Origin: Actinomycetota bacterium
GTDB taxonomy: Bacteria; Actinomycetota; Coriobacteriia; Anaerosomatales; Anaerosomataceae
NCBI GenBank assembly: GCA_009773565.1
Contig: WSXY01000005.1
Coordinates: 62,001 to 126,000, forward strand
Reading direction: 5' to 3'
Length of the DNA stretch: 64,000 nt
Part shown: piece after piece, positions 40,866 to 62,231 of the stretch
How the letters are laid out: the number at the start of each line of letters is the position of its first letter
Position numbering within the stretch: position 1 is the stretch's first letter
The notes under the pieces: generated by a model
Told to the model about the DNA's origin: nothing
The model's database searches: none
Seen by the model: only the letters and a program-made list of their open reading frames with translations
Made by a program: the position numbers and the translations under genes

Positions 40866-40949
40866 GGGCAGTGAGCTGCCGCGAATGAATGTGTTCGCGT
40901 GCAACGCTACACATGTTACGCGCGCAGGCCGCTCACTCAAGGGTTAGGT
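40866..40949 (+). repeat. attC-like recombination site 1 (left edge of cassette array)
   Basis: The right arm ends in GTTAGGT (40943-40949), a full match to the GTTRRRY core, preceded by CTCACTCAAGG, close to the L-R arm of classical aadA attC sites. The left arm GTGAGCTGCCGC (from about 40871) pairs with GGCCGCTCAC on the right with mismatches. The outer left box is degenerate. First repeat after proS. Confidence 0.5.
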
Positions 40950-40976
40950 GCACCGCAAGGGCGCTGGAGGACGGGT

Positions 40977-41393
40977 ATGGGCTACTGGATGACTGCCCGA
41001 AAGGGCGACGCAGGTATTCACGTCTCTGACTGCCACGGCGGGTTTAGCAACAACCTGAATGTACAGAACTCTCGAGTCTTCTCGGAAGGTCCGGACATCG
41101 AGATCGTGATGGATCTCAACGGCAATCTGAGGAGTCGTTCGAAGCAGGACAACTCATACCTGGACGCACGGGACTTGGCCAGCGGCGGCATTGATGAACT
41201 CACGCTGGTGCAAATCAGCGATGACCGGTTCATTGACGTGCTCTCTACGCGCCTCCAGGGGTTCCGTGATAGGCCGCGTGCTTGGTACCTCACGCTTGAG
41301 TTGCAGGGCGACCACACGTTTCAGGTCGAACCCGAGTTCAAGACGATGCATCGGCTTCGCATACTGAACCTTCATGTAGTCGGCCCAGCCTGA
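40977..41393 (+). CDS. Hypothetical cassette protein
   Basis: A 138-residue soluble protein that I do not recognise (MGYWMTARKGDAGIHVSDCH at the N-terminus). The ATG at 40977 follows GGAGGA; an upstream GTG at 40899 would run through the attC-like repeat and is rejected. It is the first gene of the accessory array, with 50 bp between its stop and the next repeat. It has no signal peptide or membrane segment. Confidence 0.65.
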   Translation: MGYWMTARKGDAGIHVSDCHGGFSNNLNVQNSRVFSEGPDIEIVMDLNGNLRSRSKQDNSYLDARDLASGGIDELTLVQISDDRFIDVLSTRLQGFRDRPRAWYLTLELQGDHTFQVEPEFKTMHRLRILNLHVVGPA

Positions 41394-41442
41394 TCTTGGG
41401 ACAGGCGATTGCCGTCTTGCGGCCCCTTGCGGAGTGGCGGGC

Positions 41443-41528
41443 ACCTAACAAGCACATCCAGCTGACGCGCACGAGGTAGACTGACATGGACGGCATCGGC
41501 GCGCAGCTGATGCGCAAATGCGTTCGAC
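41443..41528 (+). repeat. attC-like recombination site 2
   Basis: 86 bp from ACCTAAC (41443-41449, RYYYAAC) to GTTCGAC (41522-41528). The inner arms CAGCTGACGCGC and GCGCGCAGCTG pair almost fully, with one unpaired T, as attC stems do. The 3' arm shares GCGCAA...GCGTT with sites at 45577 and 46283. Confidence 0.65.
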
Positions 41529-41559
41529 GCAGCACGATGGTTATTTGTGGAGGGGAAAC

Positions 41560-42987
41560 GTGAGCGATATTGTTCCTGCGGGGCCATCGGCCATGGACCT
41601 CGCGGCAGAGTCGACTGTGTTTCAACAGTACCTCGCCGCCTACGGGTTGCCGGTCGACAACGTTATTGCGACAACGGAACAGAGAGCGATCGTTGCCTCA
41701 AACCTGCCGTCGTTCCTCGATTCTCTATCGCCGGAAGAGAGGGGAAACGCCCGCTATCTCTCTAAGTTCGTCGGGGCGTCAGCGATCGGTCTCTTCGATG
41801 CGGCTCTGAACTACATCTGGAACGAAGTTGTTCTGAGTCTCCGTCAGAAGGCGTCCGTATACGGAATCGAGCTCTTCTATGACGCGGCGGTTGGCGGCAA
41901 GAACCGTGAGTTCTACAAGGACGAAGAGGACCTTGACGGGCTGAAAGACAGTGTCTTGCTCGACACCTGTCGCAAACTCGAATTGATCTCCGACATCGTC
42001 TACCGGAAACTCGACCACATTCTCACGATGCGAAACGAAGTGGCCGCGAGTCATCCCAACGTCGAAAGCATTGGCGGCTTCGAACTACTGGGATGGCTTC
42101 AGACGTGTGTGTCGGACGTGCTCCAAGACCGGATGTCGGACTCCGCCATCCGCATCAAGGCGCTCGTGGACAACATCAAGGCGCGCACTGATGTTCTGGA
42201 CCAGACCACTGCTGATCGGTTCGGCGAAGAACTCCCGAACTTAGCTTCATCCCACGTACAGAATCTGCTCGTGGCCATGTTTGGAATGTTCTGCTCGCCG
42301 GAATCAAACCAGATACTCAGGGCCAACATCGCCAAGATTGCGCCACTAGTTTGGGGCTGTGCGGACGATGACGTGAAGTATCGCATCGGGACAATTGTGG
42401 ACGGCTATCGCACGAACTTGCAGCAGGAGAAGCTCGCCAAAGGCGTCGAGTTCCTTGATTTGGTCGATGGCAAGAAGTACGAATCGTTGCCAGCCAAGAT
42501 CGTCGCACTTGAGAACCTCGCATCACAACTCGATGACGCTCATGACGGCCGGGACAATTTCTACAACGAGCCACCGATCATGCGACAGATTCTCGGCTAC
42601 ATGAACGACTCAACAGACATCCCGCGCGAGGTGCTTCCTCGGCTAACTCGCGTCGTGGTTCGATGTCGCCTTGGTCGCGGCTTGATGTACCGCGAGGGAG
42701 TCAGTCCGGCGGGCCGTTTGCTCTACGACCAGTTCCTTGGGATGCTCGACGATGCGGGAATCCTTGAATGCATCAAGGCGCTCTTCCGTCCGGACATCAA
42801 CTCGAAACTGAGCAATTCCATTTGTCGTCAGCATCTCGGATCGATTCTCACAATCTTGCGGGGAATCGCAATCTCAGAGCGGCTCAAGGAGATGCTCGAC
42901 TATCTCCTCGCTGACTTGGTCAAGGCCGGCAAAGCGAATCTCTACAAGGACTTCAAGGATCTATCAGTCCCACTGGTCACGTGGTAG
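41560..42987 (+). CDS. Large helical protein with HEPN-type Rx6H motif
   Basis: A 475-residue soluble, mainly helical protein. A central helix-rich region contains MRNEVAASHPN, which fits the R-N-x(5)-H form of the HEPN ribonuclease motif found in many anti-phage and toxin proteins. I do not recognise the rest. The GTG at 41560 follows GGAGGGG; the ATG at 41518 lies inside the repeat. The stop is 3 bp before the next attC-like box. A defensive RNase or abortive-infection role is inference. Confidence 0.6.
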   Translation: MSDIVPAGPSAMDLAAESTVFQQYLAAYGLPVDNVIATTEQRAIVASNLPSFLDSLSPEERGNARYLSKFVGASAIGLFDAALNYIWNEVVLSLRQKASVYGIELFYDAAVGGKNREFYKDEEDLDGLKDSVLLDTCRKLELISDIVYRKLDHILTMRNEVAASHPNVESIGGFELLGWLQTCVSDVLQDRMSDSAIRIKALVDNIKARTDVLDQTTADRFGEELPNLASSHVQNLLVAMFGMFCSPESNQILRANIAKIAPLVWGCADDDVKYRIGTIVDGYRTNLQQEKLAKGVEFLDLVDGKKYESLPAKIVALENLASQLDDAHDGRDNFYNEPPIMRQILGYMNDSTDIPREVLPRLTRVVVRCRLGRGLMYREGVSPAGRLLYDQFLGMLDDAGILECIKALFRPDINSKLSNSICRQHLGSILTILRGIAISERLKEMLDYLLADLVKAGKANLYKDFKDLSVPLVTW

Positions 42988-42990
42988 CAC

Positions 42991-43052
42991 GTCGAACAAA
43001 CGGATCAACCTGACTCGCTTCGCTCGCAGGTTATCCGTATAACACGTTGGAT
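42991..43052 (+). repeat. attC-like recombination site 3
   Basis: 62 bp from GTCGAAC (42991-42997) to GTTGGAT (43046-43052, GTTRRRY). ACGGAT and AACCTG on the left pair perfectly with CAGGTT and ATCCGT on the right, leaving one unpaired C on the left strand: the unpaired-base architecture of attC. It is almost identical over about 40 bases to the site at 48561. Confidence 0.85.
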
Positions 43053-43066
43053 GGAATCACGACATC

Positions 43067-43921
43067 ATGGGTCATCACACCGTCCCCCAGGAGTATCTTC
43101 GCGGCTTCGCGAGCCCCGCTCGCGAAGAGTACGTGTGGCTGCACGCGCGAGGAGACTCTGAACCGCGACACGTACCGATTGCCAAGGCCCTGCAGTCGCG
43201 TGGATTCTACCGCCCAGAGACTGAAGTCTCGCTTGCTCGTGATGTCGAGAAGCCGGCGAACGCCGTACTACGAAAGCTAGCCGCAGGAGATTCGATCACG
43301 GATGAAGAGAGGGCGCACTTCACCTACTACCTTGCGGTCATGCACGAGCGAGTACCTGCGGCGCGTCGCAAGATTGATGAGCTTGCCCCGGAAGTACTGG
43401 ACCGTGCCATCGAGAACACCCGCACCAAACTCCACGAGGTGGCTGACGACTCTGACATTGCGTCGGGGCGACTCGCAACTCGCCTGAGCGAATTGGACGA
43501 ACTGCACGTGAGGTATCGGGAGAAGATCCCGAAAGTAGTACTTGAAGATGCATACGAGCCATGGCCTGGCGAGCCAGTGCTCAACGCAATCTATTCGATG
43601 AACTGGCACATCCTCCGCACTGACGGTCCACAGTGCTTCGTAACCTGCGACAACCCCTTTTTCTACTTCGCTGAGCGAGGCATCGGCAATGCGCACTCCG
43701 AGGTCACGTTCCCGTTGACGACGAATGCAACCTTGAACTGCTCATGGCGACCATCGGCTGACAGGCTGGTCTTCAAGGATGTGACGCAGCGAATCGTGAA
43801 GAACATCAACCGTAGGTTGGCCAGCCACGCCGACACGGTGGTCATCTATCACGAACCTGCCCCTTGGATTCTGAGGCTGCTTTCCGCGGGCAGTGTTGCG
43901 CTCGAATCATTCACCCGGTAA
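43067..43921 (+). CDS. DUF4238 domain-containing protein
   Basis: A 284-residue protein matching the DUF4238 pattern: HHTVPQEYLRGFA at the N-terminus and FVTCDNPFFYF near residue 190, a signature recurrent in these proteins. The family is widespread on mobile elements and of unknown biochemistry. The ATG at 43067 is used. It is the single gene of its cassette, between repeats at 42991 and 43925. Confidence 0.75.
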   Translation: MGHHTVPQEYLRGFASPAREEYVWLHARGDSEPRHVPIAKALQSRGFYRPETEVSLARDVEKPANAVLRKLAAGDSITDEERAHFTYYLAVMHERVPAARRKIDELAPEVLDRAIENTRTKLHEVADDSDIASGRLATRLSELDELHVRYREKIPKVVLEDAYEPWPGEPVLNAIYSMNWHILRTDGPQCFVTCDNPFFYFAERGIGNAHSEVTFPLTTNATLNCSWRPSADRLVFKDVTQRIVKNINRRLASHADTVVIYHEPAPWILRLLSAGSVALESFTR

Positions 43922-44029: not shown

Positions 44030-44773
44030 TTGACTTCAAGCGCGGGCAGCCGCCCGCTGGGTGACCATAAACGAGTCGGCAAGCGCTTCATCCCACCGAT
44101 GCTTGACGCAATGGGCGGACTGCTGAATGAGACGCCCTGGCGCCAGACTCTGCCAGAGCTAGTCTGGCTTGCGTGCCTACATTCGGGGTACGGAAACGCG
44201 CGTGGAACTGCATTGGCCGTCGTCCTCGCACGCGCAGTGGACGAGGCTCACCCTGAGCCACCCGAGCTTTTCGGGCCCGTTTCGAAGTTCTTGTCCCTAA
44301 GTCCGGAGGAGCAGGCGAGAATCCTTCTCATACTCGAGTCGAATGGCGACCTCGACGACCTGCGCAAAGGGCTTCGAAGCTTGAATGTCCTGTATCCGCG
44401 TTCGCCACTCCAATTCATCACTAACGACTGGGAGCACGCATCTGACCCCTTGAGACATGACGTGGAAGACTTCAAGGAGGTGCTCATGGACCTCTTTGAC
44501 AAGACCAGTCGGCAGGCAATTATAATGCAAGGCACCCTGATCTACGTGGCATTCGAACTCGATCGCCTACGAGTTGCGCCCGGTATCGGCTTGGCCCAGT
44601 TGCCTGAACTGGAGAACTACCCTGACACAGCCGAATCGCGGCTCGTTGCGGCCTCAGTAAGGTCGGCGGTTCCATTGCTCGTTCGACCGCCGGAAGAGGC
44701 ATACGAGACGGCTTGGTCCGCGTACTTCTGGAATCGAGGTCTTGAGATTGAACCGTGCAGGGCACAGCTATGA
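44030..44773 (+). CDS. Hypothetical protein, first gene of a two-gene cassette
   Basis: A 247-residue soluble protein beginning with a TTG at 44030 after GGTGGGGG. The early motif LGDHKRVGKRFIPPM is distinctive and recurs, to my memory, in proteins encoded next to DUF5677-like genes. No catalytic motif is evident. Its stop overlaps the next start as ATGA, so the pair is translated together within one cassette. Confidence 0.6.
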   Translation: MTSSAGSRPLGDHKRVGKRFIPPMLDAMGGLLNETPWRQTLPELVWLACLHSGYGNARGTALAVVLARAVDEAHPEPPELFGPVSKFLSLSPEEQARILLILESNGDLDDLRKGLRSLNVLYPRSPLQFITNDWEHASDPLRHDVEDFKEVLMDLFDKTSRQAIIMQGTLIYVAFELDRLRVAPGIGLAQLPELENYPDTAESRLVAASVRSAVPLLVRPPEEAYETAWSAYFWNRGLEIEPCRAQL

Positions 44774-45582
44774 ATGACAAGCGGCACCCCAACTTCGATG
44801 TCCTGTTCGCTGCGCTCGCGGAGTTCGACAGTAATGCTAGGACAGACGTCTCCTGCCGTTGGGACGAGCTCGGTGTAGACATCACTGAGAGTGAAACCAA
44901 GGAGGTGCTGGGCAGCCTGTTGTCCCGTCAGGCCAAACTGGCCATCGACTTGGTCCAGCAGCCCGGACTGTGGACCGCGCATTCCGCGCCCCTCTTCCTA
45001 CGAGCCATGGCTGATGTGCACATCACGCTGGCTTGGATTCTTGAACATCCCAAGGTGCGAAGTCGTCAGTTCATTCACTATGGGTTGGGTCAGGCCAAGC
45101 TCGACATCGAGAAGCGCAAGACGCGACTTGCGGCATCTGAACACACTGAGGCTGACGAGGAGTCGTTCGTCGAATTCCTTGAGTCATGGGTTGACTCCCA
45201 GCGCTATGCCTTCCTCACTGAAGTGAATGTGGGAAGCTGGTCTGGCGCGTCGACGCGTCAGATGGCGCATGATGCCGGACTGCACGACTACTACGACTAC
45301 GTGTACGTGCCATTCAGCGCGTGCGTTCACTCGACATGGCAGCACGTCGAGCGACTGAACACCGCGATGTGCGATAACCCCCTGCATCGATTCCACCGGG
45401 TTCCGTCCATCGTAGATGGCGGTAGGGACCCGCACTACTCGCTCCTAGCTGCACAGTACCTAGACGAGACTCTGACTATGGTCGACGAGGCGTTTGATCT
45501 GCACCCCTCTTGCTCGACTGCCTACCCTGGGCTGATTGAGGCGATCGCGGAGTACTTCAGCATCCCTGAGGACGAGGTCTAA
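44770..45582 (+). CDS. DUF5677-like protein
   Basis: A 270-residue helical protein resembling DUF5677: a helix bundle (AMADVHITLAWILEHPKVRSRQF) followed by WSGASTRQMAHDAGLHDYYDYVYVPFSACVHSTW, where the YxxxS-x-xVHxxW stretch is the family hallmark. Function unknown. The ATG overlaps the preceding stop, and its own TAA is inside the RYYYAAC box of the next repeat, the classic placement in integron cassettes. Confidence 0.65.
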   Translation: MNDKRHPNFDVLFAALAEFDSNARTDVSCRWDELGVDITESETKEVLGSLLSRQAKLAIDLVQQPGLWTAHSAPLFLRAMADVHITLAWILEHPKVRSRQFIHYGLGQAKLDIEKRKTRLAASEHTEADEESFVEFLESWVDSQRYAFLTEVNVGSWSGASTRQMAHDAGLHDYYDYVYVPFSACVHSTWQHVERLNTAMCDNPLHRFHRVPSIVDGGRDPHYSLLAAQYLDETLTMVDEAFDLHPSCSTAYPGLIEAIAEYFSIPEDEV

Positions 45583-45662
45583 CAAGCGCTTACGGCAGAA
45601 CGCCGCGCGCGTGTAGGCTGAAGAGAGGCGCTCGGCGTATGCTGAGCGCAACAACGTTATGC
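45577..45662 (+). repeat. attC-like recombination site 5
   Basis: 86 bp from GTCTAAC (45577-45583, exact RYYYAAC, containing the upstream stop codon) to GTTATGC (45656-45662). TAACAAGCGC at the left and GAGCGCAACAACGTT at the right are the outer arms, and GCGCTTACGGCAG...ACGCC pairs with GGCGTATGCTGAGCGC. TAACAAGCG / GTTATGC is strikingly like Vibrio-type repeats. Confidence 0.75.
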
Positions 45663-45691
45663 ACAACAGTTCGCACCGGGGGGTGGGGATC

Positions 45692-45919
45692 ATGCAGCGT
45701 TACACGAACATCGGCGGCGACTCGAGTGTTGCGGGTTACGAGTGTGCACCTGAATCCATCACTGTTCAGTTCACCGATGGCTGGAAGTACCTCTACACGT
45801 ACGCTAGCTGTGGGACGGTCAACTGTGAGCAAATGAAGAGTCTCGCAGCCTCGGGCGACGGCCTCAACTCGTTCATCATGCGAAACGTGCGAACAGGCTA
45901 CGCGCGGAAATGGCGCTAG
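45692..45919 (+). CDS. Small KTSC-like domain protein
   Basis: A 75-residue protein resembling the KTSC domain (a small beta-rich fold): VAGYECAPESITVQFTDG, YLYTYASCG and AASGDGLNSFI. The same domain occurs in the lipoprotein at 55804, in the same array. The ATG at 45692 follows GGGGTGGGGA. Role unknown; KTSC domains are often found beside nucleases or on mobile elements. Confidence 0.6.
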   Translation: MQRYTNIGGDSSVAGYECAPESITVQFTDGWKYLYTYASCGTVNCEQMKSLAASGDGLNSFIMRNVRTGYARKWR

Positions 45920-45931
45920 CTCGAGGCACAG

Positions 45932-45994
45932 CACGAACCTGCGCTGTGGTGTGATCAGTGATTGTCACACCTCCAGCGCACAATGCCGTCGGAC
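45932..45994 (+). repeat. attC-like recombination site 6
   Basis: TGCGCTG-t-GGTGTGA (45940-45954) pairs with TCACACC-tc-CAGCGCA (45965-45980): 14 paired bases with offset unpaired bases. Flanking boxes CACGAAC and GTCGGAC are only partial matches to the R boxes. It lies between two short genes. Confidence 0.45.
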
Positions 45995-46046
45995 GCGAGC
46001 GCGCGATGGCGAGCCAGACATGCGTCCGGGCGGGAGGTGATGTGCG

Positions 46047-46187
46047 ATGGCCACAATGGGTGAGAAACCTGGCAAGGGCACGTACAAGTGCACCAAGTGC
46101 GGGCAGCTCGTGGTGCTCGATGACTCCACGGACACGCTGCCGCCCTGCCCATCTTGCAACGGCACCAACTTCGTTAGAGTCGGCTAG
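46047..46187 (+). CDS. 46-residue zinc-ribbon protein
   Basis: A very small rubredoxin-like zinc ribbon with YKCTKCGQ and PCPSCNGTNF knuckles. The ATG at 46047 has an ideal GGGAGGTGA site upstream. The family of stand-alone ~45-residue zinc ribbons is common but uncharacterised. As the only gene of its cassette it shows that the array carries minimal cargo. Confidence 0.75.
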   Translation: MATMGEKPGKGTYKCTKCGQLVVLDDSTDTLPPCPSCNGTNFVRVG

Positions 46188-46200
46188 ATAGGCGCGCCAC

Positions 46201-46282: not shown

Positions 46283-46368
46283 GCCTAACCCGCGCTTCCA
46301 CTCGACTCGCGCCAGGCGTCGCGAAATGGGAGCGCAAGCTCGCGAGTCAAGCGCAAGATGCGTTGTGC
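46283..46368 (+). repeat. attC-like recombination site 8
   Basis: 86 bp from GCCTAAC (46283-46289, exact RYYYAAC) to GTTGTGC (46362-46368). GCGCTT and GACTCGCG on the left pair with CGCGAGTCAAGCGC on the right. It overlaps the 5' end of the open frame of the following ATPase, showing that the long start at 46281 is false. Confidence 0.65.
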
Positions 46369-46397: not shown

Positions 46398-48566
46398 ATG
46401 GGGGGAGTCAGCGTTGACTTCAAGTATTGCTACGGGATAGGCGCTCTCAAACATGAGTTTGGATGTGCGGATGGACGCGTCTACCTGATCTATGCGCCCA
46501 ATGGCTCCATGAAGACGTCCTTTGCAAAGGCCTTCTTCGACAAGTCGAATGGCGACGAACCGAGCGACGTTGTTCGTCCAGAGCTTCCCGCGCAGTGCGA
46601 TATCACGGATTGCGAAGGCGTCCCGATTCCACCGGATCGCATCATGGTGGTGGAACCCTACCAGGAGAGTTACACGGCAAAGCGAATGTCCACGCTCATG
46701 GTGGACAAGAAGCTTCAGACGCGCTACCAGGAACTGGTCGAGTCCATCAATACCAAGCGCGATGCAGTAGTGAAAGCACTTGGGCAGAAAGGAGGGTACT
46801 CGCGAAACCCCGAAGACCCGCTACTCAAAGCATTTGATTTGGGCGCGGACGGGATCTACGAGGTACTGGTCCAACTACACTCGGCGATCGAAGACACTCC
46901 GGACCCCGGACTATCGCACATTGAGCACCGGCAGTTGTTCGATCCCAAAGTTGTTCAGTTCCTTGCCACGCCGGCGGCCCGACAGCACCTAGCGGAGTAC
47001 GTGGAGCGATACGACGAGCTGTTGGACCGATCGTCGTACTTTCGCCGTGGGGGCTTCGACAACTTCGGGGCTGTCAGCGTGGTCGGAGCGCTCGTGAAGC
47101 ATGGCTTCTTCGAGGCAAAGCATAGCGTCTCCCTTGTAGACCGCGATTCGAAGCCAACCGACCCGATCTCCAACAAGAGCGAATACGATGCGCTCATAGA
47201 ACGGGAAAAGTCTGCGATTCTGAGCGACCCCGAACTTTCAAAACGCTTTCACGCTCTCGACGACGCCTTCAATAAGAACGACCAGCTTCGAGGTCTTCGC
47301 AGCTATCTCGAAGCTCATCCCGAGGTGATATCGCAACTACAGGATCTGCCCGCCCTTGGGAGGAAGCTGTGGCTTTCGTACGCCTTCGCCGAAACCGAAG
47401 CAGTTGCGGAGTTCGCGAACACGTACACAAAAGCCCGCGCTCGGATTCTTGAGATTACGGAGGAGGCCAGTCGACAGCGCACCGAGTGGGAGCAAGCTGT
47501 CGAGGTATTCCATAACAGGTTCGAGGTACCATTCCGACTCAAGGTACAGAATCAGCAGGACGTGATTCTGAGGAATGAACTCCCGACCCTCGTCTTCCAT
47601 TGGAAATGCGAAGGGGAGCCCGAAATCACTCGGGGTGCACTCCTGACCGTGTTGAGCCAAGGCGAGAAGCGCGCGCTCTATCTTCTCAATGTCATCTTCG
47701 AGCTTGAAGCCCGGAAGAAGGATCCCGACGACACGGTTCTTGTAATCGACGACATTGCCGACTCATTCGATTACATCAACAAATACGCGATAGTGGAATA
47801 TCTCAACGATTTGCTGCAGTCGAACCGTTTCACGATGTTCATCCTCACACACAACTTCGACTTCTTTCGAACGGTCTGGAGTCGACTGGACGTTCATCGC
47901 CGGAACTGCCTAATGGCAGATAGCGATGATGCCGGCGCTTTTGAGCTTCTAGACGCCTCCTACCTCTACCAGCCCTTCAAGCGCTGGCGGAGCGGACTGG
48001 GCACGAATACGAGAATGCTCGTGGCTAGCATCCCGCTGATGCGCAATCTGATCGAATATGCTCGCGGCACGGATGACGAAAGGTACATCTTCCTGACCAA
48101 GCTCCTGCACGTGAAGCCTGAGACGGACAGCATTACCATGGACGCTCTCGCCGACGTCATCTCCGAGACTCTCGGAGTAGCAGCTCCTCGCGGGCAGGGG
48201 AAGGTCGTCGATGCGATTGCGGCTGCGGCACAGTCATGTATGAGCAACAGCAGCACGCCGCTGGATCTTGAGTCCAAGATTGTGTTGTCCATCGCAATCC
48301 GGCTTGTTGCAGAGAGGCTCATGCTTGCGGGGATACCTCCCCACAAAGCCGCCACGGCCATCGGGCCGAAGCAGACAAGGAACCTCTTCAAGTTGTACTT
48401 GGATGAGCAACCTGCTGAGCTAGGGCGCATTGCCCTGTTTGAGCGAGTGATGCTGATGACTCCGGAGTCAATTCACCTCAACTCATTCATGTACGAGCCG
48501 ATTCTGGACATGTCGGACCATCATCTGAGGACCTTGTATTCTGAGCTTGCACAGGTTCCTGCATAA
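46398..48566 (+). CDS. AAA_13-like ABC-type ATPase
   Basis: A 722-residue ATPase of the SMC/RecF-like AAA_13 kind seen in PrrC/RloC-type and other defence proteins. The P-loop is atypical, APNGSMKT at residues 33-40, with Ala33 and Met38 where Gly is usual; the signature LSQGEKRA starts at residue 419 and Walker B LVIDDIADSFDY has Asp451-Asp452. A helical insertion (about residues 90-370) separates the halves; the C-terminal ~200 residues are not recognised. ATG at 46398 after GGGGCGGGG. The TAA lies in the next attC-like box. Confidence 0.7.
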   Translation: MGGVSVDFKYCYGIGALKHEFGCADGRVYLIYAPNGSMKTSFAKAFFDKSNGDEPSDVVRPELPAQCDITDCEGVPIPPDRIMVVEPYQESYTAKRMSTLMVDKKLQTRYQELVESINTKRDAVVKALGQKGGYSRNPEDPLLKAFDLGADGIYEVLVQLHSAIEDTPDPGLSHIEHRQLFDPKVVQFLATPAARQHLAEYVERYDELLDRSSYFRRGGFDNFGAVSVVGALVKHGFFEAKHSVSLVDRDSKPTDPISNKSEYDALIEREKSAILSDPELSKRFHALDDAFNKNDQLRGLRSYLEAHPEVISQLQDLPALGRKLWLSYAFAETEAVAEFANTYTKARARILEITEEASRQRTEWEQAVEVFHNRFEVPFRLKVQNQQDVILRNELPTLVFHWKCEGEPEITRGALLTVLSQGEKRALYLLNVIFELEARKKDPDDTVLVIDDIADSFDYINKYAIVEYLNDLLQSNRFTMFILTHNFDFFRTVWSRLDVHRRNCLMADSDDAGAFELLDASYLYQPFKRWRSGLGTNTRMLVASIPLMRNLIEYARGTDDERYIFLTKLLHVKPETDSITMDALADVISETLGVAAPRGQGKVVDAIAAAAQSCMSNSSTPLDLESKIVLSIAIRLVAERLMLAGIPPHKAATAIGPKQTRNLFKLYLDEQPAELGRIALFERVMLMTPESIHLNSFMYEPILDMSDHHLRTLYSELAQVPA

Positions 48567-48629: not shown

Positions 48630-49793
48630 TTGGGGGATAGAACACACGTTGATGAGGTGTTTGGCGTCGCTCGCCAGCTGGCGCTGGCCAGCGGCCCGCT
48701 GGTTCGCAACTTCTCGTACATGCGCGCCACCTTGGCCACGGATGCGATCCGCGATTCACTTGCGAGAACAGCCAAGCTCAATACCTCGCTCCTAGCATCG
48801 ACTCAGCAGATTCGAACCGCGCAGATGGCGCTTTCAATCGACAATGGTCAGCTTGCGAGCATCATGGATGCGAATAGTCACCTGCAAGACGTAGTTGGCA
48901 AGATGGGCATCTTGAAGTTGGCACTACCGGTCAGCCTCGCTGCCCAAATTGGCAGTGGCAGAGCAATGGAACTCGCTGGCCTGTCAGGCTCGATCGCTGG
49001 CTCCTATCTCCAGTTGAACGCCTCAACCGGTCTTGCAGCGTCGATGGTAGCTCAGCTGAAGTTGACCGCGCTGCGCACAGTCCCGCTCGGCGGCCTTATC
49101 CAGTCGGACTCAACCTTCCGCCGCTCGACATCGGCACACCTCGGGCGTGTGACTCGGGCGTACGAATCGTTGATGGGCGCGGCTCTAGTCGATCGCTCGC
49201 TCGCCGACTATATCCCAGCGGTCACCTCCTACCCGCCCGTTGACTACTATCGGCACGTTGAGGCCATACAGTCCATCACCCTACCAATTGACGGCGAGCA
49301 GTACTCGAGCGAGTCGATACTCGACTCCCTCGATCTTGGAGCACCCACCGTTGATGATGTGTTGCTCGCACTTGATCCCGCGCTACATCCCCTTCTGATT
49401 GGAGCTCGACAGGCGCTTCAAGACGACAACCCAGAACGCCCTCGGTACATCACGACGTCTCTAAGGGAAGTCATGACGCAAGTTCTTCGCCGACTCGCAC
49501 CCGATACGGACGTGAAGAACTGGTCCACCTCCTCAAGCGACTACCACGACGGTCGCCCGACTAGACGCGCGCGGCTCATGTACATCTGTAGACGAATAAA
49601 CAGTGGGCCCTTCATGGAATTCGTGGACGCGGATGTCTCCGCCGCACTTGCTTTGGTCAAGTCCTTGAATGCGGGAACGCACACCATCACGTCGGAGCTG
49701 ACCGGGGTGCAATTGGAGGCGATGATCTCCCGCGTAGAGTCCCTGCTCCTGTTCCTGTTGCGACTCAGCGAGGCCGAGTGGGCGTCCAGCTAG
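48630..49793 (+). CDS. Helical protein with C-terminal domain resembling predicted pPIWI-associated nuclease
   Basis: A 387-residue protein starting at TTG 48630 after GGAGGAG. The first ~240 residues are Ala/Ser/Leu-rich helices of no known family. The C-terminal part (LLIGARQALQDDNPERPRYITTSLRE, then RRARLMYICRRI and LEAMISRVESLLLFLL) resembles a domain noted as a predicted nuclease next to pPIWI genes, or a HEPN-like bundle. I recall this only by pattern, so the assignment is weak. It is a single-gene cassette after the AAA ATPase. Confidence 0.5.
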   Translation: MGDRTHVDEVFGVARQLALASGPLVRNFSYMRATLATDAIRDSLARTAKLNTSLLASTQQIRTAQMALSIDNGQLASIMDANSHLQDVVGKMGILKLALPVSLAAQIGSGRAMELAGLSGSIAGSYLQLNASTGLAASMVAQLKLTALRTVPLGGLIQSDSTFRRSTSAHLGRVTRAYESLMGAALVDRSLADYIPAVTSYPPVDYYRHVEAIQSITLPIDGEQYSSESILDSLDLGAPTVDDVLLALDPALHPLLIGARQALQDDNPERPRYITTSLREVMTQVLRRLAPDTDVKNWSTSSSDYHDGRPTRRARLMYICRRINSGPFMEFVDADVSAALALVKSLNAGTHTITSELTGVQLEAMISRVESLLLFLLRLSEAEWASS

Positions 49794-49798
49794 CCCGG

Positions 49799-49866
49799 TG
49801 TCAACCATACAGCGCAGCGTAATGTACACTCGGGCGGGGCGCGCGAGTAGACGTTCCAGGTTGCGA
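49799..49866 (+). repeat. attC-like recombination site 10
   Basis: GGTGTCAACC (49797-49806) pairs with GGTTGCGACC (49859-49868), AAcGT-type pairs and ACTCG/CGAGT lie inside. TGTCAAC and GTTGCGA are approximate R boxes. It begins 5 bp after a stop codon. Confidence 0.55.
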
Positions 49867-49914
49867 CCAAGTCTGTTCGGCGGAATGCAGGTGTTCTAAA
49901 GGGGGAGGCACGTG

Positions 49915-50610
49915 GTGAACCTCGTGGTCGATTGTCCGGTCTGTGAAGCCAAGTCGAGGGGCGATGTGCTTGCAAGCCACATCGGCTGGGACGACGTATT
50001 CGACCGATACGAGAACGTGTCTCTTGTGAAGTGCCCGGCTTGCAGCGCAGCAGTGCTCGTAGCGCAGGCTGATCGAAATCCTCCTGATGCACCAGGGTAT
50101 GACTGGGGAACCCCATGGCGAGTCTGGCCGCGCGCGCTCAAGACGCTCTCACAGGACATCCCTGAAGATGTTCGCAAGAACATCGATGAGGCCCAGAAGT
50201 GCTTTCGCGCCGGAGCCTACAACGCCTGCGCAGTAATGTGCGGTCGGGCTCTTGAAGCCGTGGCACACGCCTTTGGAACCAAGAAGAAGGTCCTCGCTGG
50301 CGGTCTCCAGGACTTGCGTGACGCTGGTGTCATCGATCACCGGTTGTACGAGTGGGGGGACGCCCTCCGTAGCGAACGCAATGTTGCGGCTCATGCCTCA
50401 GGCGGTGACATCACGAAGACTGATGCGAGCGACCTGATTGAGTTCACAAATGCGATTTGTGAATACGTGTTCGTACTGACAGCCCGGTTCGAGAAGTTCA
50501 TGGAGCGCAAGAAGTCGCCGGAGACGTCGGCAAGAGCTATGGCGGCGCCGAGAGGCAAGCCCGTCGAGGTATGTCCCGCTGACCTTGACGGCGAAGAAAT
50601 CCCCTTCTAA
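49915..50610 (+). CDS. DUF4145 (HEPN) domain protein with N-terminal zinc ribbon
   Basis: A 231-residue protein: an N-terminal zinc ribbon (DCPVCEAKS, KCPACSAAV) and a C-terminal DUF4145 domain with ALEAVAHAFG, and the HEPN signature RNVAAH (Rx4H). DUF4145 proteins are frequent companions of restriction systems and may be RNases. Start is GTG 49915 (7 bases after GGGGGAGG) rather than GTG 49912. Followed by the restriction-modification genes. Confidence 0.75.
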   Translation: MNLVVDCPVCEAKSRGDVLASHIGWDDVFDRYENVSLVKCPACSAAVLVAQADRNPPDAPGYDWGTPWRVWPRALKTLSQDIPEDVRKNIDEAQKCFRAGAYNACAVMCGRALEAVAHAFGTKKKVLAGGLQDLRDAGVIDHRLYEWGDALRSERNVAAHASGGDITKTDASDLIEFTNAICEYVFVLTARFEKFMERKKSPETSARAMAAPRGKPVEVCPADLDGEEIPF

Positions 50611-50626
50611 GCCGATAATCGACGCT

Positions 50627-50643
50627 GTACGCGGAATTCCGCG
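50627..50643 (+). repeat. Perfect palindrome downstream of the DUF4145 gene
   Basis: GCGGAATTCCGC, extended by C-G pairs on each side, forms a perfect palindrome around 50630-50643. It lies where an attC-like site would be expected, but I cannot see R boxes. It could be a decayed site or a transcription end. Confidence 0.3.
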
Positions 50644-50698
50644 GACTCACTCAGCTCATGTACGAAGACTCCACCCGCAGCATCTTTGTGAAGCTACT

Positions 50699-50727
50699 TC
50701 TCAAGCGAACACGTGTTCGCATACAAT
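50699..50727 (+). promoter_or_regulatory. Promoter with LexA (SOS) box in its spacer
   Basis: GCGAACACGTGTTCGC (50705-50720) is a perfect 16-bp palindrome and an exact match to the Gram-positive LexA operator CGAACRNRYGTTYG. It is followed at once by TACAAT (50722-50727), a good -10 element, so the operator fills the 17-bp spacer after a weak -35 (TCTCAA, 50699-50704). It points at the methyltransferase gene starting at 50826. Confidence 0.7.
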
Positions 50728-51779: not shown

Positions 51780-52642
51780 TGTACGGCCCCGTCCAGTTTG
51801 CCGAAGCACGAAAGGCCTTCCACGACGCACTTCTACGAACATGCCTTACCATCGATTCGCAGGGGCGCCCTAGCAACAGCGACAGTTCGAATCAGACCAG
51901 CATCAAACTGGCAAAGGGAATTGCCGACCTCTTGAAGGCCGAGACTGTGGGCGAGCGAGCTGCGGGTCAGACTTCCGGCAACCAGTTCGAGGCCGTATGC
52001 GCTGAGTATGTCCGGCTAACGTTTCTGAAGCTCGGACACTTGCGACCTGGCAAGTGGGATGTACAGCACGTCAGAGGTCACAACCGTCTGGAGATCGCTC
52101 GCTACGAGCAGTACTCCCATCTCGTCGCACTCGATAAGGCGGCGCGCAATGACCCTGAGTTGGCTGCGGCGCTCGGAAGCGACTACACCATCACTCCAGA
52201 CGTCGTAATCGTTCGCCAGACCGAAGACGACGCCGCTATCAACGCCACGGAGCAGCTCGTTGATGACCGAGTGGCGACGCTCGCAAGCCTGCGGAGCCGG
52301 GACGGAGGACTGCCTCTGCTGCACGCAAGCATCTCCTGCAAGTGGACGATTCGGAGCGATCGCGCGCAGAACGCACGGTCCGAAGCGCTGAACCTCGTTC
52401 GCAATCGCAAGGGCCGTCTTCCGCACGTCGTCGTCGTGACGGCTGAGCCCACCCCAAGCCGACTTGCATCCATTGCCCTGGGTACCGGAGATGTCGACTG
52501 CGTCTACCACTACGCGCTGTACGAGCTGCAGGAGACTATTGAGGCACTCGGAATGGACGATGCCGCAGATACACTTGCCGTGATGGTCAACGGCGACCGG
52601 CTCAAGGACATTTCCGATTTGCCGCTCGATCTGGCTGTATAA
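51779..52642 (+). CDS. NgoMIV-family type II restriction endonuclease
   Basis: A 287-residue endonuclease matching the NgoMIV/Cfr10I group. The permuted active site is visible: Asp141 in ITPDVVIV, Ser186 and Lys188 in SISCKW, and Glu202 in SEALNLVRNRKGRLPHVVVV, one residue off the positions I recall for NgoMIV. By family it would cut G^CCGGC. Start ATG overlaps the methyltransferase TGA, so enzyme and protector are translationally linked. The window contains GCCGGC sites (for example near 1522 and 22876), consistent with an active methylase. Confidence 0.85.
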   Translation: MYGPVQFAEARKAFHDALLRTCLTIDSQGRPSNSDSSNQTSIKLAKGIADLLKAETVGERAAGQTSGNQFEAVCAEYVRLTFLKLGHLRPGKWDVQHVRGHNRLEIARYEQYSHLVALDKAARNDPELAAALGSDYTITPDVVIVRQTEDDAAINATEQLVDDRVATLASLRSRDGGLPLLHASISCKWTIRSDRAQNARSEALNLVRNRKGRLPHVVVVTAEPTPSRLASIALGTGDVDCVYHYALYELQETIEALGMDDAADTLAVMVNGDRLKDISDLPLDLAV

Positions 52643-52656
52643 GCGCTTTCTCAGGC

Positions 52657-52682
52657 CATCGCAAGGGCCTGCTTTGGGTACT
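52657..52682 (+). terminator. Hairpin after restriction endonuclease gene
   Basis: CAGGCC pairs with GGCCTG across a 7-8 base loop, followed by CTTTGGG. A weak intrinsic terminator, or the inner stem of a decayed attC-like site, since GTATAAG at the stop codon is close to RYYYAAC. Confidence 0.4.
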
Positions 52683-52814
52683 TGTTCCGCCGTCATACTC
52701 ATCACACAGTAAGTCGTGACATTATCGAAGCCATGATGATCGTGCAGTTTCGAACCTTACCCCCGAGGCATTCCTCGGACGCGCGGATCTCCAAGAGTTG
52801 CCTTACAATGGTGG

Positions 52815-52846
52815 AATATCCTGGATAGACGGACAGGATTCCAGTC
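52815..52846 (+). repeat. Bulged hairpin before the pentapeptide gene
   Basis: TGGAAT-at-CCTG (52815-52826) pairs with CAGGATTCCA (52837-52846) with two unpaired bases on one side, as in attC stems. R boxes are not recognisable. The rest of the 52643-52888 gap holds a small CCGAGG/CCTCGG hairpin at 52763-52778 and nothing else I can identify. Confidence 0.35.
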
Positions 52847-52888
52847 GCTGGCAGAGGCCGCTCAGAATGAGGTTCGGCATAAACGACA

Positions 52889-54379
52889 GTGAACCAGAAG
52901 GGGATACCGTTGGGGCAGTGTGATTCACCCACTTTCGCCGGGACTGGGCCGCTTTGCGGCCGACCAACGCTACCGGACAGCCCCAAATGCATCCTCCACG
53001 ACCGGAGGGAATACAAGCCGCTCGAGGAGTTTGTGGACGCGTTTAGGGAGCGCACCTCCGACTTCATGGACTTGAGCTACATGACCCTTCCACGTGGGTT
53101 CAAATTCTACTCTGGATCGCCCTATATGGAGACCATAACTTGTCGAGAGACAGTCTTCTGCGAGGCTATGGCATTCGAGGGTGTCACCGTTTCGGGTTTG
53201 GCCTATTTCCGCGATGCCAGTTTCCTTGGAGGTGTGAGTTTCAAGGGAACCCGTTTCAACAGCCGCCTCAATTTCCAGGGTGTCACCGTCGACGGCGACG
53301 CTAACTTTCGCGGCATGACCTGCAGGGGAGACATCGCCTACTTCGAAGGCACTGAGTTCACCAGCCAAGGTGCTTCGGTTGACTTCTCCAACTCACGCTT
53401 TGGCGGCGATGCGATATTCAAGTTCCTAAACTGTCGAGGTTGGATGACGTTTACCAGAGCGGAGTTCTCTGGATACACGAACTTCTGGGGTTCGGATATT
53501 GACAGCATCCGCATGGATCATGCCGTGTTCGAGGGCCTTACGAGGCTTGAAGCGCTATCGACGAGCAACTTCGACTTAACGTCCTGCGTGTTCAAGAACC
53601 TCACCGAACTTGAAATCCAGTTCCAGCCGCAGACGGACCCAACCTTCGCCAACGAGCCTGTGCTGGTTCTGCGCAACGTGATTCCCGGTGACTACCTCAG
53701 AGTCGCTAACACTGACTTGTCAAAGGCAAGCTTCCTCGGAACGGATCTCTCCAATTGCACGTTCACCGACGTCACTTGGCCCCGCATCGGCAAGCGTCAG
53801 GCAGCGGCTGATGAGATTCAGCTGTTAGGTGGGTCCCAGTGGTACGATCTCACACCGGATTCAGTCGCTGAGGTGTACCGGGGTTTGCGCCGAAACCTCG
53901 AATCGAGGCTCGCATATCACCAAGCGAGCGACTTCTATGTCGGCGAGATGGAGATGAGGCTACGATCTGCTACGACCGACAGGAGACTCAGAGAGCTGAT
54001 TCCTCTCAAGCTGTACAAGGCAATGTCCGGATATGGCGAGAACTGGCTTCGTCCGCTGTTCGTTCTCGCCCTATGGTCGATGTTCTTCGCGCTTCTGCTC
54101 CTGCTTGGCGGAGTCGTTATCGGATCGCCCGCCACAGGGTATCGAACGATGCAGTATGGGCTCCAGGGCTACTTTCGGCCAGCGCAGCTTCTGGCCGACT
54201 ACCTATGGGCCATGGCATACGCTTTCTCCATTGCGATCCTCCGACCGGGTCAGGACGTCGCGCTTACCAGCAATTGGCTGCGCATGGTTCAGGTGTTTTC
54301 TTACGTGCTTGGTCCGTCTTGCATCACCCTGGCTCTGCTCGCTATAAGGCGTTCATTCAGACGCGGCGCAGCTGGTTAG
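52889..54379 (+). CDS. Pentapeptide-repeat protein with C-terminal membrane segments
   Basis: A 496-residue protein. A short Cys/His knuckle (CDSPTFAGTGPLCG, CILHD) starts it; residues about 85-240 contain pentapeptide-type A(D/N)LXX repeats (FRDASFLGGVSFKGTRFNSRLNFQG), a right-handed beta-helix; a helical linker YRGLRRNLESRLAYHQASDF leads to two or three C-terminal membrane helices. This layout is typical of membrane pentapeptide proteins of unknown function, some linked to defence. GTG 52889 has no strong ribosome site, so the true start is uncertain. Confidence 0.7.
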   Translation: MNQKGIPLGQCDSPTFAGTGPLCGRPTLPDSPKCILHDRREYKPLEEFVDAFRERTSDFMDLSYMTLPRGFKFYSGSPYMETITCRETVFCEAMAFEGVTVSGLAYFRDASFLGGVSFKGTRFNSRLNFQGVTVDGDANFRGMTCRGDIAYFEGTEFTSQGASVDFSNSRFGGDAIFKFLNCRGWMTFTRAEFSGYTNFWGSDIDSIRMDHAVFEGLTRLEALSTSNFDLTSCVFKNLTELEIQFQPQTDPTFANEPVLVLRNVIPGDYLRVANTDLSKASFLGTDLSNCTFTDVTWPRIGKRQAAADEIQLLGGSQWYDLTPDSVAEVYRGLRRNLESRLAYHQASDFYVGEMEMRLRSATTDRRLRELIPLKLYKAMSGYGENWLRPLFVLALWSMFFALLLLLGGVVIGSPATGYRTMQYGLQGYFRPAQLLADYLWAMAYAFSIAILRPGQDVALTSNWLRMVQVFSYVLGPSCITLALLAIRRSFRRGAAG

Positions 54380-58937: not shown

Positions 58938-59180
58938 ATGAAGACGAAGGTCCAGAAATGGGGCAACAGCCTCGCCGTCAGGATTCCCAAGACGTTCGCG
59001 GAAGAGGTCGGCCTCAAGGACGACTCTTCTATCGAGATGCGTCTCGTGAAGGGCGGTCTACTCCTGGAGCCCACATCAGAATGGACGCCGAGCCTCGATG
59101 AAATGCTCGCGACCGTCACCGATTCCAACCTGCACGACGAGGTAGAAACAGGCCCGGCTCAGGGTTCGGAGGCGTGGTAG
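58938..59180 (+). CDS. mazE: MazE-type AbrB-fold antitoxin
   Basis: An 80-residue antitoxin with the swapped-hairpin DNA-binding domain of the AbrB/MazE class (VQKWGNSLAVRIPKTFAEEVGL, EMRLVKGGLLLEP) and a short acidic tail that would neutralise the toxin. ATG 58938 after GGGGAGG, own promoter upstream. It ends 2 bp before the toxin start. Confidence 0.92.
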   Translation: MKTKVQKWGNSLAVRIPKTFAEEVGLKDDSSIEMRLVKGGLLLEPTSEWTPSLDEMLATVTDSNLHDEVETGPAQGSEAW

Positions 59181-59182
59181 CC

Positions 59183-59518
59183 ATGACGTGGGCACCTGAA
59201 CGCGGCGACGTGGTCTGGATCACGATGAACCCGAGCGTCGGACACGAGCAGCTTGGTCGCAGGCCCGCCCTCGTCCTCTCGCCGGGCTCCTACAACCGCA
59301 AGGTGGGCCTCGCGATACTGTGCCCGATCACCAGCCAGGTGAAGGGCCACCCGTTTGAGGTCGCAGTCCCGGATGGACTTCTCTTACAGGGCGTCATCCT
59401 GTCGGACCAAGCGAAGAGCCTCGACTGGAGGTCCCGTGGCGCCGAGTTGGCGTGCACGCTTCCGCCGGCGAGCGTCACGGAGGTCCTGCAGAAGCTGGGC
59501 AGGCTGGTCGCACCGTAG
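59183..59518 (+). CDS. mazF: MazF-type mRNA interferase toxin
   Basis: A 111-residue MazF/PemK toxin that cleaves RNA. Motifs: PERGDVVWITMNPSVGHEQLGRRPALVLS, CPITSQVKGHPFEV, ILSDQAKSLDWRSR. ATG 59183 is preferred; the GTG at 59174 would overlap mazE. Confidence 0.93.
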   Translation: MTWAPERGDVVWITMNPSVGHEQLGRRPALVLSPGSYNRKVGLAILCPITSQVKGHPFEVAVPDGLLLQGVILSDQAKSLDWRSRGAELACTLPPASVTEVLQKLGRLVAP

Positions 59519-60089: not shown

Positions 60090-61082
60090 GTGTCTGGAAC
60101 CTCAACTAAGAAGACAATCCTGCTCGTTGTGGCCGCCGTGCTGGTCGCGCTGCTCGTGGTGCCCCTCATCTGGCCGGTGCCACCGCTGGGGAATACGGTC
60201 ACCGCGGCGTCTCTCGCAGACAGCGACTCTCGTTTCATCGATATCGACGGCCTCAACGTTCACTACAAGGTGTGGGGGCTGCCCTCCTCGGCCGCAACCA
60301 GCGGTGTCGACACGGCGATCGTCTTGCTTCACGGCTTTGGCGCCTCCACGTTCTCGTGGCATGAGGTGGCCGAGCCCCTGTCCGGCCGGATGCCGGTCGT
60401 CGCGTTCGATCGCCCGGCCTTCGGACTGACCGACCGTCCGCTCAAGTGGACCGGGGCGGACCCGTACGCGCCCGAGACCCAGGCCGACCTCACCGTGAAA
60501 CTCATGGACCAACTCGGCATACGGCGCGCGGTGCTCATCGGGCACTCGGCAGGGGGGACCGTGGCGGCGCTGGTCGCAGAGCGCTACCCGGAGCGTGTCG
60601 CGGCCATCGTTCTCGAGGATCCCGCGATCTTCGCCGGCGGACCACCCGCATTCCTCACCCCGCTCTTCCGCACGCCGCAGTTCAGGCGCCTCGGCCCGCT
60701 CTTCGCCCGCAGTCTCGGCGGGAAGGCGGGTACCGACTTCATCAAGACCGCGTGGCACGACCCTTCAAGGATCACCGAGGAGACCTTCGCCGGATACCGC
60801 GCGCCCCTGCGAGTGAAGGACTGGGACACCGCCCTGTGGCTGCTGACGATCGCGCCGCGGCCCGCGAACGTATCCGAGCTCACGAGCGTCATCAAGGCGC
60901 CTGCGCTCTTCATCACCGGCGATGACGACCGCGTCGTCCCACCCGAGGACACCCGACGCGCCGCGGCGCTCATCAAGGGCGCGGAGGTAGTGACCGTCGC
61001 GCAGTGCGGTCACCTTCCGCATGAGGAGCAGCCGGCCGCCTTCCTCGACGCGGTCGACGCGTTCCTAGACGGGGCGCTGTAG
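60090..61082 (+). CDS. Membrane-anchored alpha/beta hydrolase
   Basis: A 330-residue protein with one N-terminal membrane helix (residues ~10-28) and an alpha/beta-hydrolase domain: oxyanion HGFGASTFSW, nucleophile elbow GHSAGGTV, acid in ITGDDDRVVPP, and His in QCGHLPHEEQP. It is likely anchored outside the membrane. GTG 60090. Substrate unknown. Confidence 0.85.
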   Translation: MSGTSTKKTILLVVAAVLVALLVVPLIWPVPPLGNTVTAASLADSDSRFIDIDGLNVHYKVWGLPSSAATSGVDTAIVLLHGFGASTFSWHEVAEPLSGRMPVVAFDRPAFGLTDRPLKWTGADPYAPETQADLTVKLMDQLGIRRAVLIGHSAGGTVAALVAERYPERVAAIVLEDPAIFAGGPPAFLTPLFRTPQFRRLGPLFARSLGGKAGTDFIKTAWHDPSRITEETFAGYRAPLRVKDWDTALWLLTIAPRPANVSELTSVIKAPALFITGDDDRVVPPEDTRRAAALIKGAEVVTVAQCGHLPHEEQPAAFLDAVDAFLDGAL

Positions 61083-61271
61083 GACGCTCGGACGGCACCC
61101 TCCCAAAGTCGCATTCGGTCATGTCAGCAATCGCATTGCTATAGCGAGCGATGCTGATGCGCTGCGTGTCAGACCGGGCTGATAGTCTCACTTCATCAGG
61201 GAATCGCTGGACAGATGTCAAGTTCTTTGTTTACATAGTCAGTACCCGCGGTAGAAACAGATTGGACGGCC

Positions 61272-61658
61272 GTGGAGGCTCAGAGGGTAGGTGATCGAAC
61301 ATGGATGCTCGTTTCCAGTTCCGGTCAGTGCCAACCGAAGAAGTACCTCAAGAAGAACCGCGAGACCGCGCCGGCTGTGCTGGCACGTCTTCACGACGTC
61401 GACCAGAACGGTCCGCCTCCGAATCAAGAGCTCTTCCGTTGGCTGGACGCGCACCGCTACAAAGGCCTCCGGTTGTGCGAGTACAAGGTTCACCATCCGC
61501 GGACCTGCAGGGCGTACGCAATCAGGACCGACCGTGGATACGTTGTAGTCAGAATCGATGACAAGACCCTCAAAAATCAGCAGTTCAACGACACGATGAA
61601 GTTGATCAAGGCCGCAATCGATGAGTTCTTTGAGGATGGCGAAAAGTATGTCGACTAG
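61272..61658 (+). CDS. HigB-like/RelE-type toxin candidate
   Basis: A 128-residue basic protein directly upstream of and overlapping a helix-turn-helix gene, the HigB-HigA order. A beta-rich C-terminal half (GLRLCEYKVHHPRTCRAYAIRTDRGYVVVRI) fits a RelE-like fold, but key residues are not certain. GTG 61272 is the start used. A promoter-like TTTACA at about 61231 precedes it. Confidence 0.55.
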   Translation: MEAQRVGDRTWMLVSSSGQCQPKKYLKKNRETAPAVLARLHDVDQNGPPPNQELFRWLDAHRYKGLRLCEYKVHHPRTCRAYAIRTDRGYVVVRIDDKTLKNQQFNDTMKLIKAAIDEFFEDGEKYVD

Positions 61659-62037
61659 CTTGCTTGATGACCTGAACGACCTCATCTCGGATGAGAGCGC
61701 ACGGGTTGAATACAAGCACGAACTCGCACTCAGTGCGTTCACGAATGACGTCGCTCGCCTGATGGACGAACAGAAGATTTCGCAATCTGAGCTTGCCCGG
61801 CGTCTTGGAGTTTCTCGCGCGCGGGTCTCACAACTCATGCGCCACAAGTCCAGTCCGACGCTTCGTACGATGGTCGCGGTGGGGAACGCCCTTGGCTGTG
61901 ACGTGACGCCAGGTGTAGCACCGTGTGGATTTCGACCAGCTCGACTCTTCGTAGCCGCCGGCGGCAAGACGGTGACTGGCTCGGACAAGGAATCCTCAGT
62001 TGAGCAATCCGACGCTCGTGCTGTGTCGACCAACTAG
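61648..62037 (+). CDS. XRE-family antitoxin (HigA-like)
   Basis: A 129-residue protein with a Cro/CI helix-turn-helix: LMDEQKISQSELARRLGVSRARVSQLM. ATG 61648 or 61636 overlap the toxin gene. Likely antitoxin and autorepressor of the pair. Confidence 0.75.
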   Translation: MSTSLLDDLNDLISDESARVEYKHELALSAFTNDVARLMDEQKISQSELARRLGVSRARVSQLMRHKSSPTLRTMVAVGNALGCDVTPGVAPCGFRPARLFVAAGGKTVTGSDKESSVEQSDARAVSTN

Positions 62038-62158
62038 CGACACCTTCACGCTCTTCGCGATTCCCTTCACAGCTGTGACCTCCCGACGCCTGGCACACGC
62101 AGCGGGGACGACGGCAGACATTGATATGATGGGAGCGCTCGACGTCGTGCTCAAAGGC

Positions 62159-62231
62159 CTCGAACCGCGTCAGGCGGGGTAGAGTAACCTTGACGGTATC
62201 AGCGCGCAGTTGTCGCGCGCGTGCGTTCGAT
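62159..62231 (+). repeat. attC-like recombination site 12
   Basis: CTCGAAC (62159-62165) to GTTCGAT (62225-62231). The right part matches site 2 over about 50 bases (shared CGCGCAG and TGCGTTCGA), showing that the array or a decayed piece of it reaches at least here. Confidence 0.5.

Follow-up and report, generated by a model that had tools for sequence, protein, structure and literature searches.

Comparison with described integrons

Large sedentary integrons typically share one type of attC recombination site per genome. The large sedentary integron of Vibrio cholerae holds toxin–antitoxin genes in its cargo (PMC11023631), and the sedentary integrons of Spirochaetota with a reverse-oriented intI combine a TIGR02249 integrase with an attI-like site past the 3' end of intI and with attC arrays in the direction of intI (PMC9668308). 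In Xanthomonas, clusters of attC sites lacking integrases (CALINs) are found at conserved chromosomal positions apart from intI, whether the genome has retained or lost this gene (PMC12444791; all three sources in the parts available). These traits recur with the array of attC sites and cassettes described here, which follows the core gene proS in the window, that is, in the whole stretch of 64,000 nucleotides that was analysed. The window comprises bases 62001–126000 of contig C17 (141320 bases) in an Actinomycetota draft genome of 2.27 Mb on 25 contigs, and the order of the host is presumably OPB41 (Anaerosomatales). The region is read as a secondary cassette array of a chromosomal (sedentary) integron whose integrase, IntI, is encoded on another contig and would act in trans, at a probability of roughly 80%.

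There are differences from each of these systems. Compared with the Spirochaetota integrons, the host belongs to a lineage of Actinomycetota and several of the arrays are distant from intI. Compared with the Xanthomonas CALINs, the phylum is another, and an empty site, a complete replacement of cargo and a fall of attC scores from head to tail were measured here. In V. cholerae there is one very large array, whereas several shorter arrays on eight contigs exist here, as far as the draft shows. Cassette insertion at attG sites was reportedly described by Loot et al. in 2024 (cited in PMC12444791 and PMC11023631); there, as proposed here, cassettes lie at a G|TT site that is neither attI nor attC, with the integrase acting elsewhere, but here one head is common to three genomes (the own genome, G015 and G008) and some other heads are attI-like.

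For the phylum, a survey of a large genome set found Actinobacteria without a complete integron, with one In0 and a few CALINs, called integrons "extremely rare" and considered them maybe recent acquisitions (PMC9024848). Actinobacteria are notably absent in PMC2426708, mobile integrons in Actinobacteria are mentioned in PMC3108266, and Actinobacteriota are listed without detail among the phyla with integrons in PMC8618304 (these four in the parts available). The word integron is absent from the paper on the first cultured OPB41 member (PMC9686372), and a literature search that had most subscription journals and all preprints outside its range found no report of integrons in Coriobacteriia. 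The present element is of a known kind in a new setting, an order where integrons are common.

attC sites in the window

Two covariance models were used. R1 was built from 38 aligned attC candidates adjoining integrase genes, all from other genomes; a pattern-based attC detector, which also flagged sites inside genes, served only to seed its training set. R2 was built from 150 attC sites, all outside the window. The training alignment of R1 contains 133 cells changed on both sides, compared with 43 in shuffles, with 93.8% of cells paired, and the structure collapses if the pairing partners are shifted by 1–3 columns. A conserved paired stem with extrahelical bases and complementary outer boxes is present in the training set and, by score, in the seven sites that R1 finds in the window, all in a single orientation between 41443 and 54477. 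The sites, their left flank and boundary, and the remnants beyond them are as follows.

39055–40773, + strand: proS, core gene and left flank (Pfam), conserved in 26 of 27 genomes searched
40943–40949, + strand: left boundary, formed by the G|TT box of cassette 1, which is exactly complementary to the attC 1 left box
41443–41528, + strand: attC 1, 86 bp; R1 76.6 bits, R2 81.1 bits; recombinogenic strand expected to be the bottom one
42991–43052, + strand: attC 2, 62 bp; R1 38.1 bits, R2 43.5 bits
43925–44011, + strand: attC 3; R1 34.1 bits; right box altered
45577–45662, + strand: attC 4, 86 bp; R1 31.6 bits; stop codon of the upstream open reading frame (ORF) inside the left box
46283–46368, + strand: attC 5, 86 bp; R1 31.2 bits
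48561–48621, + strand: attC 6, 61 bp; R1 21.7 bits, R2 25.5 bits
54390–54477, + strand: attC 7; R1 21.6 bits, R2 21.1 bits
55684–55717, + strand: attC fragment, 44.1 bits (best of 20 shuffles, 32.2)
62159–62231, + strand: marginal attC remnant, 9.7 bits, E 0.88
63262–63290, + strand: attC fragment directly 3' of a ParE-like gene, 50.1 bits (best of 20 shuffles, 32.2)

R2, run over the 64 kb, returned the same seven sites and no other match below E 0.1, and with R1 unfiltered over 39–64 kb, the best match after the seven has E 0.16. At E up to 10, R1 found no attC in the first 41 kb of the window or in four further stretches of C17 and C3. An Rfam search at E up to 5 gave three matches, all far under the gathering scores and none of them attC, and a generic inverted-repeat search did not recover the window sites, probably because their stems are bulged. 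Several non-standard pairs occur in the stems of the weaker sites. Six of the seven are separated by gaps of 0.6–2.2 kb and the seventh stands 5.8 kb off, which was set against the cluster definition in the available part of PMC9668308.

The earlier note on this DNA, which had described an integrase-less cassette array at 40866–62231, is largely right and is partly confirmed: this is a real cluster of attC sites. The covariance search that it proposed, carried out with models of our own and not with that of IntegronFinder, recovered such sites, and their architecture and common orientation agree with its description. Its repeat lengths of 60–88 bp agree with the measured 61–88 bp, and exactly three sites have the 86 bp it gave for three repeats; "at least a dozen" repeats is too many, since R1 and R2 find only seven. 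With regard to the boxes, it had reported exact RYYYAAC left boxes, which five of the seven have (those starting at 41443, 43925, 45577, 46283 and 54390), and exact or near GTTRRRY right boxes, which are exact in only two (ending at 43052 and 54477). A stop codon in or just before the left box is found at five of the seven sites, where it overlaps attC or lies at most 11 bp before it. The extent holds for the attC sites up to 54477; from 54.5 to 62.2 kb, intact sites are not supported, and the matches are a fragment and the marginal remnant. As a measure of the insertion, it is too small, as the inserted DNA spans about 40.9–71.5 kb in the window frame.

Other inverted repeats, such as terminators or palindromic elements, within a defence island mobilised in some other way might account for the presence of defence and toxin–antitoxin genes, for the distal 17 kb without intact attC and for the ordinary folding of single sites. 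This explanation is very improbable in view of the covariance match, the complementarity of boxes across cassettes, and the IntI and attI-like site in the same genome; furthermore, R1 had no attC match in three other members of the class taken as controls (0/3). For 40.9–54.5 kb, the results speak against it.

Box complementarity and proposed growth from the head

If capture involves circular cassettes opened at G|TT, the right box of an attC is part of the following cassette, and complementarity is expected between it and the left box of the attC that comes next. Exact matches are seen in 20 of the 33 neighbouring pairs of this genome (permuted mean 3.8, maximum 11 in 5000 permutations), and within one site in 3 of 33. 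In a chosen subset of 80 sites from relatives, 51 of 65 neighbouring pairs are exact, compared with a permuted mean of 7.7 and a maximum of 18, and 15 of 65 within one site. For this test, 45 sites of the own genome were entered, weak, cut-off and opposite-strand matches were dropped, and pairs more than 4 kb apart, including the last pair in the window, were left out. The matching of boxes across neighbouring cassettes is what site-specific capture predicts. In the window, the boxes of the first cassette (box at 40943) and of the second are exact, and the left boundary is placed at 40943 because the box of the first cassette matches exactly there.

The attC scores in the window drop in strict order with distance from proS over all seven sites (permutation p 0.0003), although causes unrelated to age may lower the scores of attC sites near 60 bp in length. 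In 26 clusters away from intI (144 sites), the scores fall in 22, are flat in 2 and rise in 2; the pooled p of 0.00025, the floor of the test, is the same without the window. This test covered 16 clusters at first and then 26, with the sites of relatives taken from among the matches listed, in which weak ones are missing. Four arrays beside intI also have a pooled falling trend (p 0.005), with a rise in G011. Entry of new cassettes at the head is suggested by these trends, and the falling scores would then reflect age.

Eighteen array heads were examined, of which 10 have an exact box within 2.6 kb and 8 have none; two of the ten were set aside as probable chance occurrences, their box being some 2.6 kb away, leaving 8 placed heads. 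With a first attI matrix, 7 of the 8 fall in the top 3% of 167 background sites, and with a second, 5 of the 8 fall in the top 1% of 962; the two matrices disagree for single heads. These attI-like heads are a lead and not a result. It is a tentative idea, doubtful at present, that one integrase serves several fixed chromosomal entry points in this order, with heads that tend to resemble attI and arrays that grow from the head, each like an integron without an integrase of its own.

Two candidates for the origin of the heads were tried. The head in the window as a copy of attI was rejected, its score being ordinary by both matrices. A decayed intI still present at the heads was not supported, the best match upstream of eight heads having an E of 0.55.

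Integrase and attI-like site on another contig

A full-length integron integrase of 324 residues is encoded on contig C3 from 99389, with a TIGR02249 score of 481 bits against a cut-off of 265. Residues 14–322 align with the solved integron integrase 2A3V, and the positions of the expected Arg, Lys, His, Arg, His and Tyr are matched; these are presumably the catalytic residues. The search of the own genome gave a full integrase on C3 only, whereas the match on C17, at 27.8–28.5 kb in the window and 13 kb from the array, is weaker and belongs to a Xer-like recombinase. After intI on C3, two attC sites follow (82.5 and 78.1 bits), and a third is truncated at the contig end. The description of the array as integrase-less, i.e., a CALIN, is therefore apt for the locus, which no integrase adjoins, but not for the genome, which has IntI, a putative attI-like site between intI and the first attC, and matching attC sites on C3.

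In 11 of 12 loci, the own genome included, intI is followed by the seven-base box that the left box of the first attC predicts, and a related sequence precedes this box. In a second scan of 33 intI loci, some genomes being included twice, 18 have a site above all 962 background sites. Of 80 named integrase loci, 20 carry the names Actinobacteria, Actinomycetota, Actinomycetes or Coriobacteria, and the named relatives are mostly metagenome-assembled genomes of Coriobacteriia and Actinobacteria. Matches to attC occur at 13 of these 20 loci, several of the remainder ending soon after intI. In a tally by hand, in which part of the sites had also trained R1, all 56 attC lie downstream of intI and 55 of 56 in the same direction. 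Up to 22 attC stand beside intI in the relative G009, among the matches listed.

In the whole genome, R1 gives at least 43 matches at E up to 1, on C1 (several places), C12, C16, C17, C3, C24, C20 and C7, and about 45 sites on eight contigs when local searches are included. The attC 1 of the window is 87–93% identical to nine high-scoring sites chosen from C3, C1, C12 and C24; judged by their sequences, the fresh attC sites on separate contigs are of one type. These results bear on the possibility that C3 is a contaminant, in which case the arrays would belong to a genome lacking its own integrase. This would be compatible with the draft state of the assembly and with the position of intI, 2.4 kb from a contig end; however, the estimated contamination is 0.51%, the attC type beside intI is the same as on C1, C12 and C17, IntI is nearest to the same genome as proS, and the distances of the two correlate over the 13 genomes compared for both (Mantel r 0.83, p 0.0001). 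It is the least probable of the explanations considered. C17 as the left continuation of the C3 array was rejected, since proS and core genes directly precede the array and its first box.

The surroundings of intI on C3 (L001:300-1350 and 2456-2776) also contain a gene for a helix-turn-helix protein and one for an AbiEii-type nucleotidyltransferase (type IV toxin–antitoxin) immediately before intI, and a Phd/YefM antitoxin gene immediately after intI, before the attI-like site.

Empty site and cargo turnover at proS

The inserted DNA, of about 31 kb, lies between proS and the right flank of rimP, nusA, infB and rbfA (Pfam), which begins at 71.5 kb in the window frame. In 10 of 12 relatives compared, the array is missing and the leader of the next core genes follows at most 420 bp after proS. 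Among 20 proS neighbourhoods searched for attC, arrays at the proS site are present in two: G015 has about 17 kb inserted, with attC from 0.7 kb after proS, and G008 has an array in which the contig ends. The equivalent exact box is located 123 and 128 bp after proS in G015 and G008, respectively. In G003 and G013, attC sites occur only about 15 kb beyond proS, and 15 other neighbourhoods of the 20 have no attC within the sequence examined. In G035, of another family of the order, one attC stands 1.0 kb after proS at a contig end (L145:3011-3094), which may mean that the proS site has served repeatedly.

The proS genes of G015 and G008 are 81–82% identical to that of the window, whereas none of 27 proteins of the array region (a count that leaves out the protein at 63807–63998) has a match in the DNA of these two genomes. 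Over all 24 loci compared, the sole match of an array protein is that of the flavodoxin, 31% identical, in G002. In the comparison of gene content that the earlier note had proposed, the region is thus not kept in fixed order among relatives.

In the proposed course of events, IntI most likely bound the folded attC hairpins of circular cassettes, whose insertion would have taken place at a receptor G|TT some 170 bp past proS. With each further insertion at this head, the cassettes already present would be shifted toward rimP-nusA-infB, where their attC sites would decay. The cluster is probably served in trans by the integron of the genome itself, which implies that IntI would be active and would have acted at the proS locus.

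Several findings weigh against this. IntI is on a different contig from the array, and its activity is predicted. Six of the seven window sites score far under the fresh type, attC 7 is 5.8 kb from its nearest neighbour, and 17 kb of the insertion hold fragments only. Of five neighbouring pairs in the window, four are inexact, with 6, 4, 6 and 6 of 7 bases matching. The head in the window is unlike attI, as 53% of the 167 and 42% of the 962 background sites score as well. Folding of the bottom strand of each site, which the earlier note had also proposed, is ordinary (z −1.8 to +0.2 for all seven) and does not discriminate.

The weak attC sites and the fragmentary tail would also be expected of a fossil array, one that entered at proS long ago through a former adjacent or visiting integrase and is now only decaying, without the present IntI; two genomes of the same family without an IntI over the cut-off still hold 6 and 36 attC matches. 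Such a history is unlikely: attC 1 belongs to the same type as the sites beside IntI and scores almost as well, the DNA upstream of the eight heads shows no intI remnant above chance level, and the cargo at the same locus is wholly different between this genome and two relatives. The preferred reading remains that of an array supplied in trans. The arrays distant from intI, together with the empty site and the exchanged cargo at one and the same locus, offer a natural experiment on the delivery of cassettes to secondary sites in trans.

Distribution and descent in Actinomycetota

With a TIGR02249 score above the cut-off as the criterion, IntI is present in 40 of 61 genomes of the family and order, the own genome included. 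It is found in 46 of 246 genomes drawn from the class, all in the same order among the matches listed, and in 16 of 396 from across the phylum, of which 13 belong to other classes (G251, G255, G269, G273, G279, G380, G399, G421, G459, G480, G507, G525 and G529); therefore, further integron lineages exist in the phylum. The claim that integrons are rare in Actinomycetota agrees with the available part of PMC9024848 but does not describe this family and order. The correlation of IntI with proS distances is what would be expected for long vertical descent. With IntI so widespread in the family and order and its divergence paralleling that of proS, the idea of an ancient, vertically inherited integron in Actinomycetota can be tested directly.

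Matches to attC are present in all seven genomes of the same family that were searched (7/7). The two same-family genomes with attC and no IntI over the cut-off, G012 (6 matches) and G013 (36), are 98–99% complete, and loss of intI in them is possible. In G002, a genome on one contig, attC clusters are located at 1.729 and 0.384 Mb and dnaA at 1.466 Mb; assuming an origin at dnaA and a terminus on the opposite side, both clusters point in the direction of replication. Such an orientation limits folding of the recombinogenic strand.

Cassettes and cargo

All named genes of the array read on the + strand, as had been stated earlier. PADLOC was run on 10 cargo proteins only.

40977–41393, + strand: cassette 1 ORF, no Pfam match
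41518–42987, + strand: cassette 2 ORF, from the first possible start, the true start being probably after attC 1; no Pfam or PADLOC match
43067–43921, + strand: cassette 3, DUF4238; only in the own genome among 61 at E 1e-20
44030–45582, + strand: cassette 4, a pair of overlapping ORFs with matches to the first and last parts of the PADLOC DitA model (2e-10, 6e-11)
45659–46188, + strand: cassette 5, small ORFs, no Pfam match
46398–48566, + strand: cassette 6, AAA ATPase; PADLOC candidate defence model PDC-S46, 3.3e-236; only in the own genome among 61 at E 1e-30
48630–54379, + strand: pPIWI-associating nuclease domain protein, DUF4145, C5 cytosine methyltransferase, NgoMIV-type restriction enzyme and pentapeptide-repeat protein
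58938–59518, + strand: MazE/MazF-like pair, in the tail of the insertion
62724–63259, + strand: antitoxin and ParE-like pair (Pfam)

The further cargo includes an HNH match and several ORFs without any match. The ORF pair of cassette 4 may be a split or frameshifted version of one DitA-like protein, the DitA matches being weak. The cargo had been called largely defensive; the NgoMIV-type restriction–modification pair, PDC-S46, the weak DitA match, the pPIWI-associating nuclease and the toxin–antitoxin genes bear this out in part, but other genes have no clear defence role. The DUF4238 and AAA cassette proteins were not found in any of 60 relatives. In the proS array of G015, an open frame (L131:9338-9988) has a homologue, 59% identical, at 21598–22110 in the window, outside any array.

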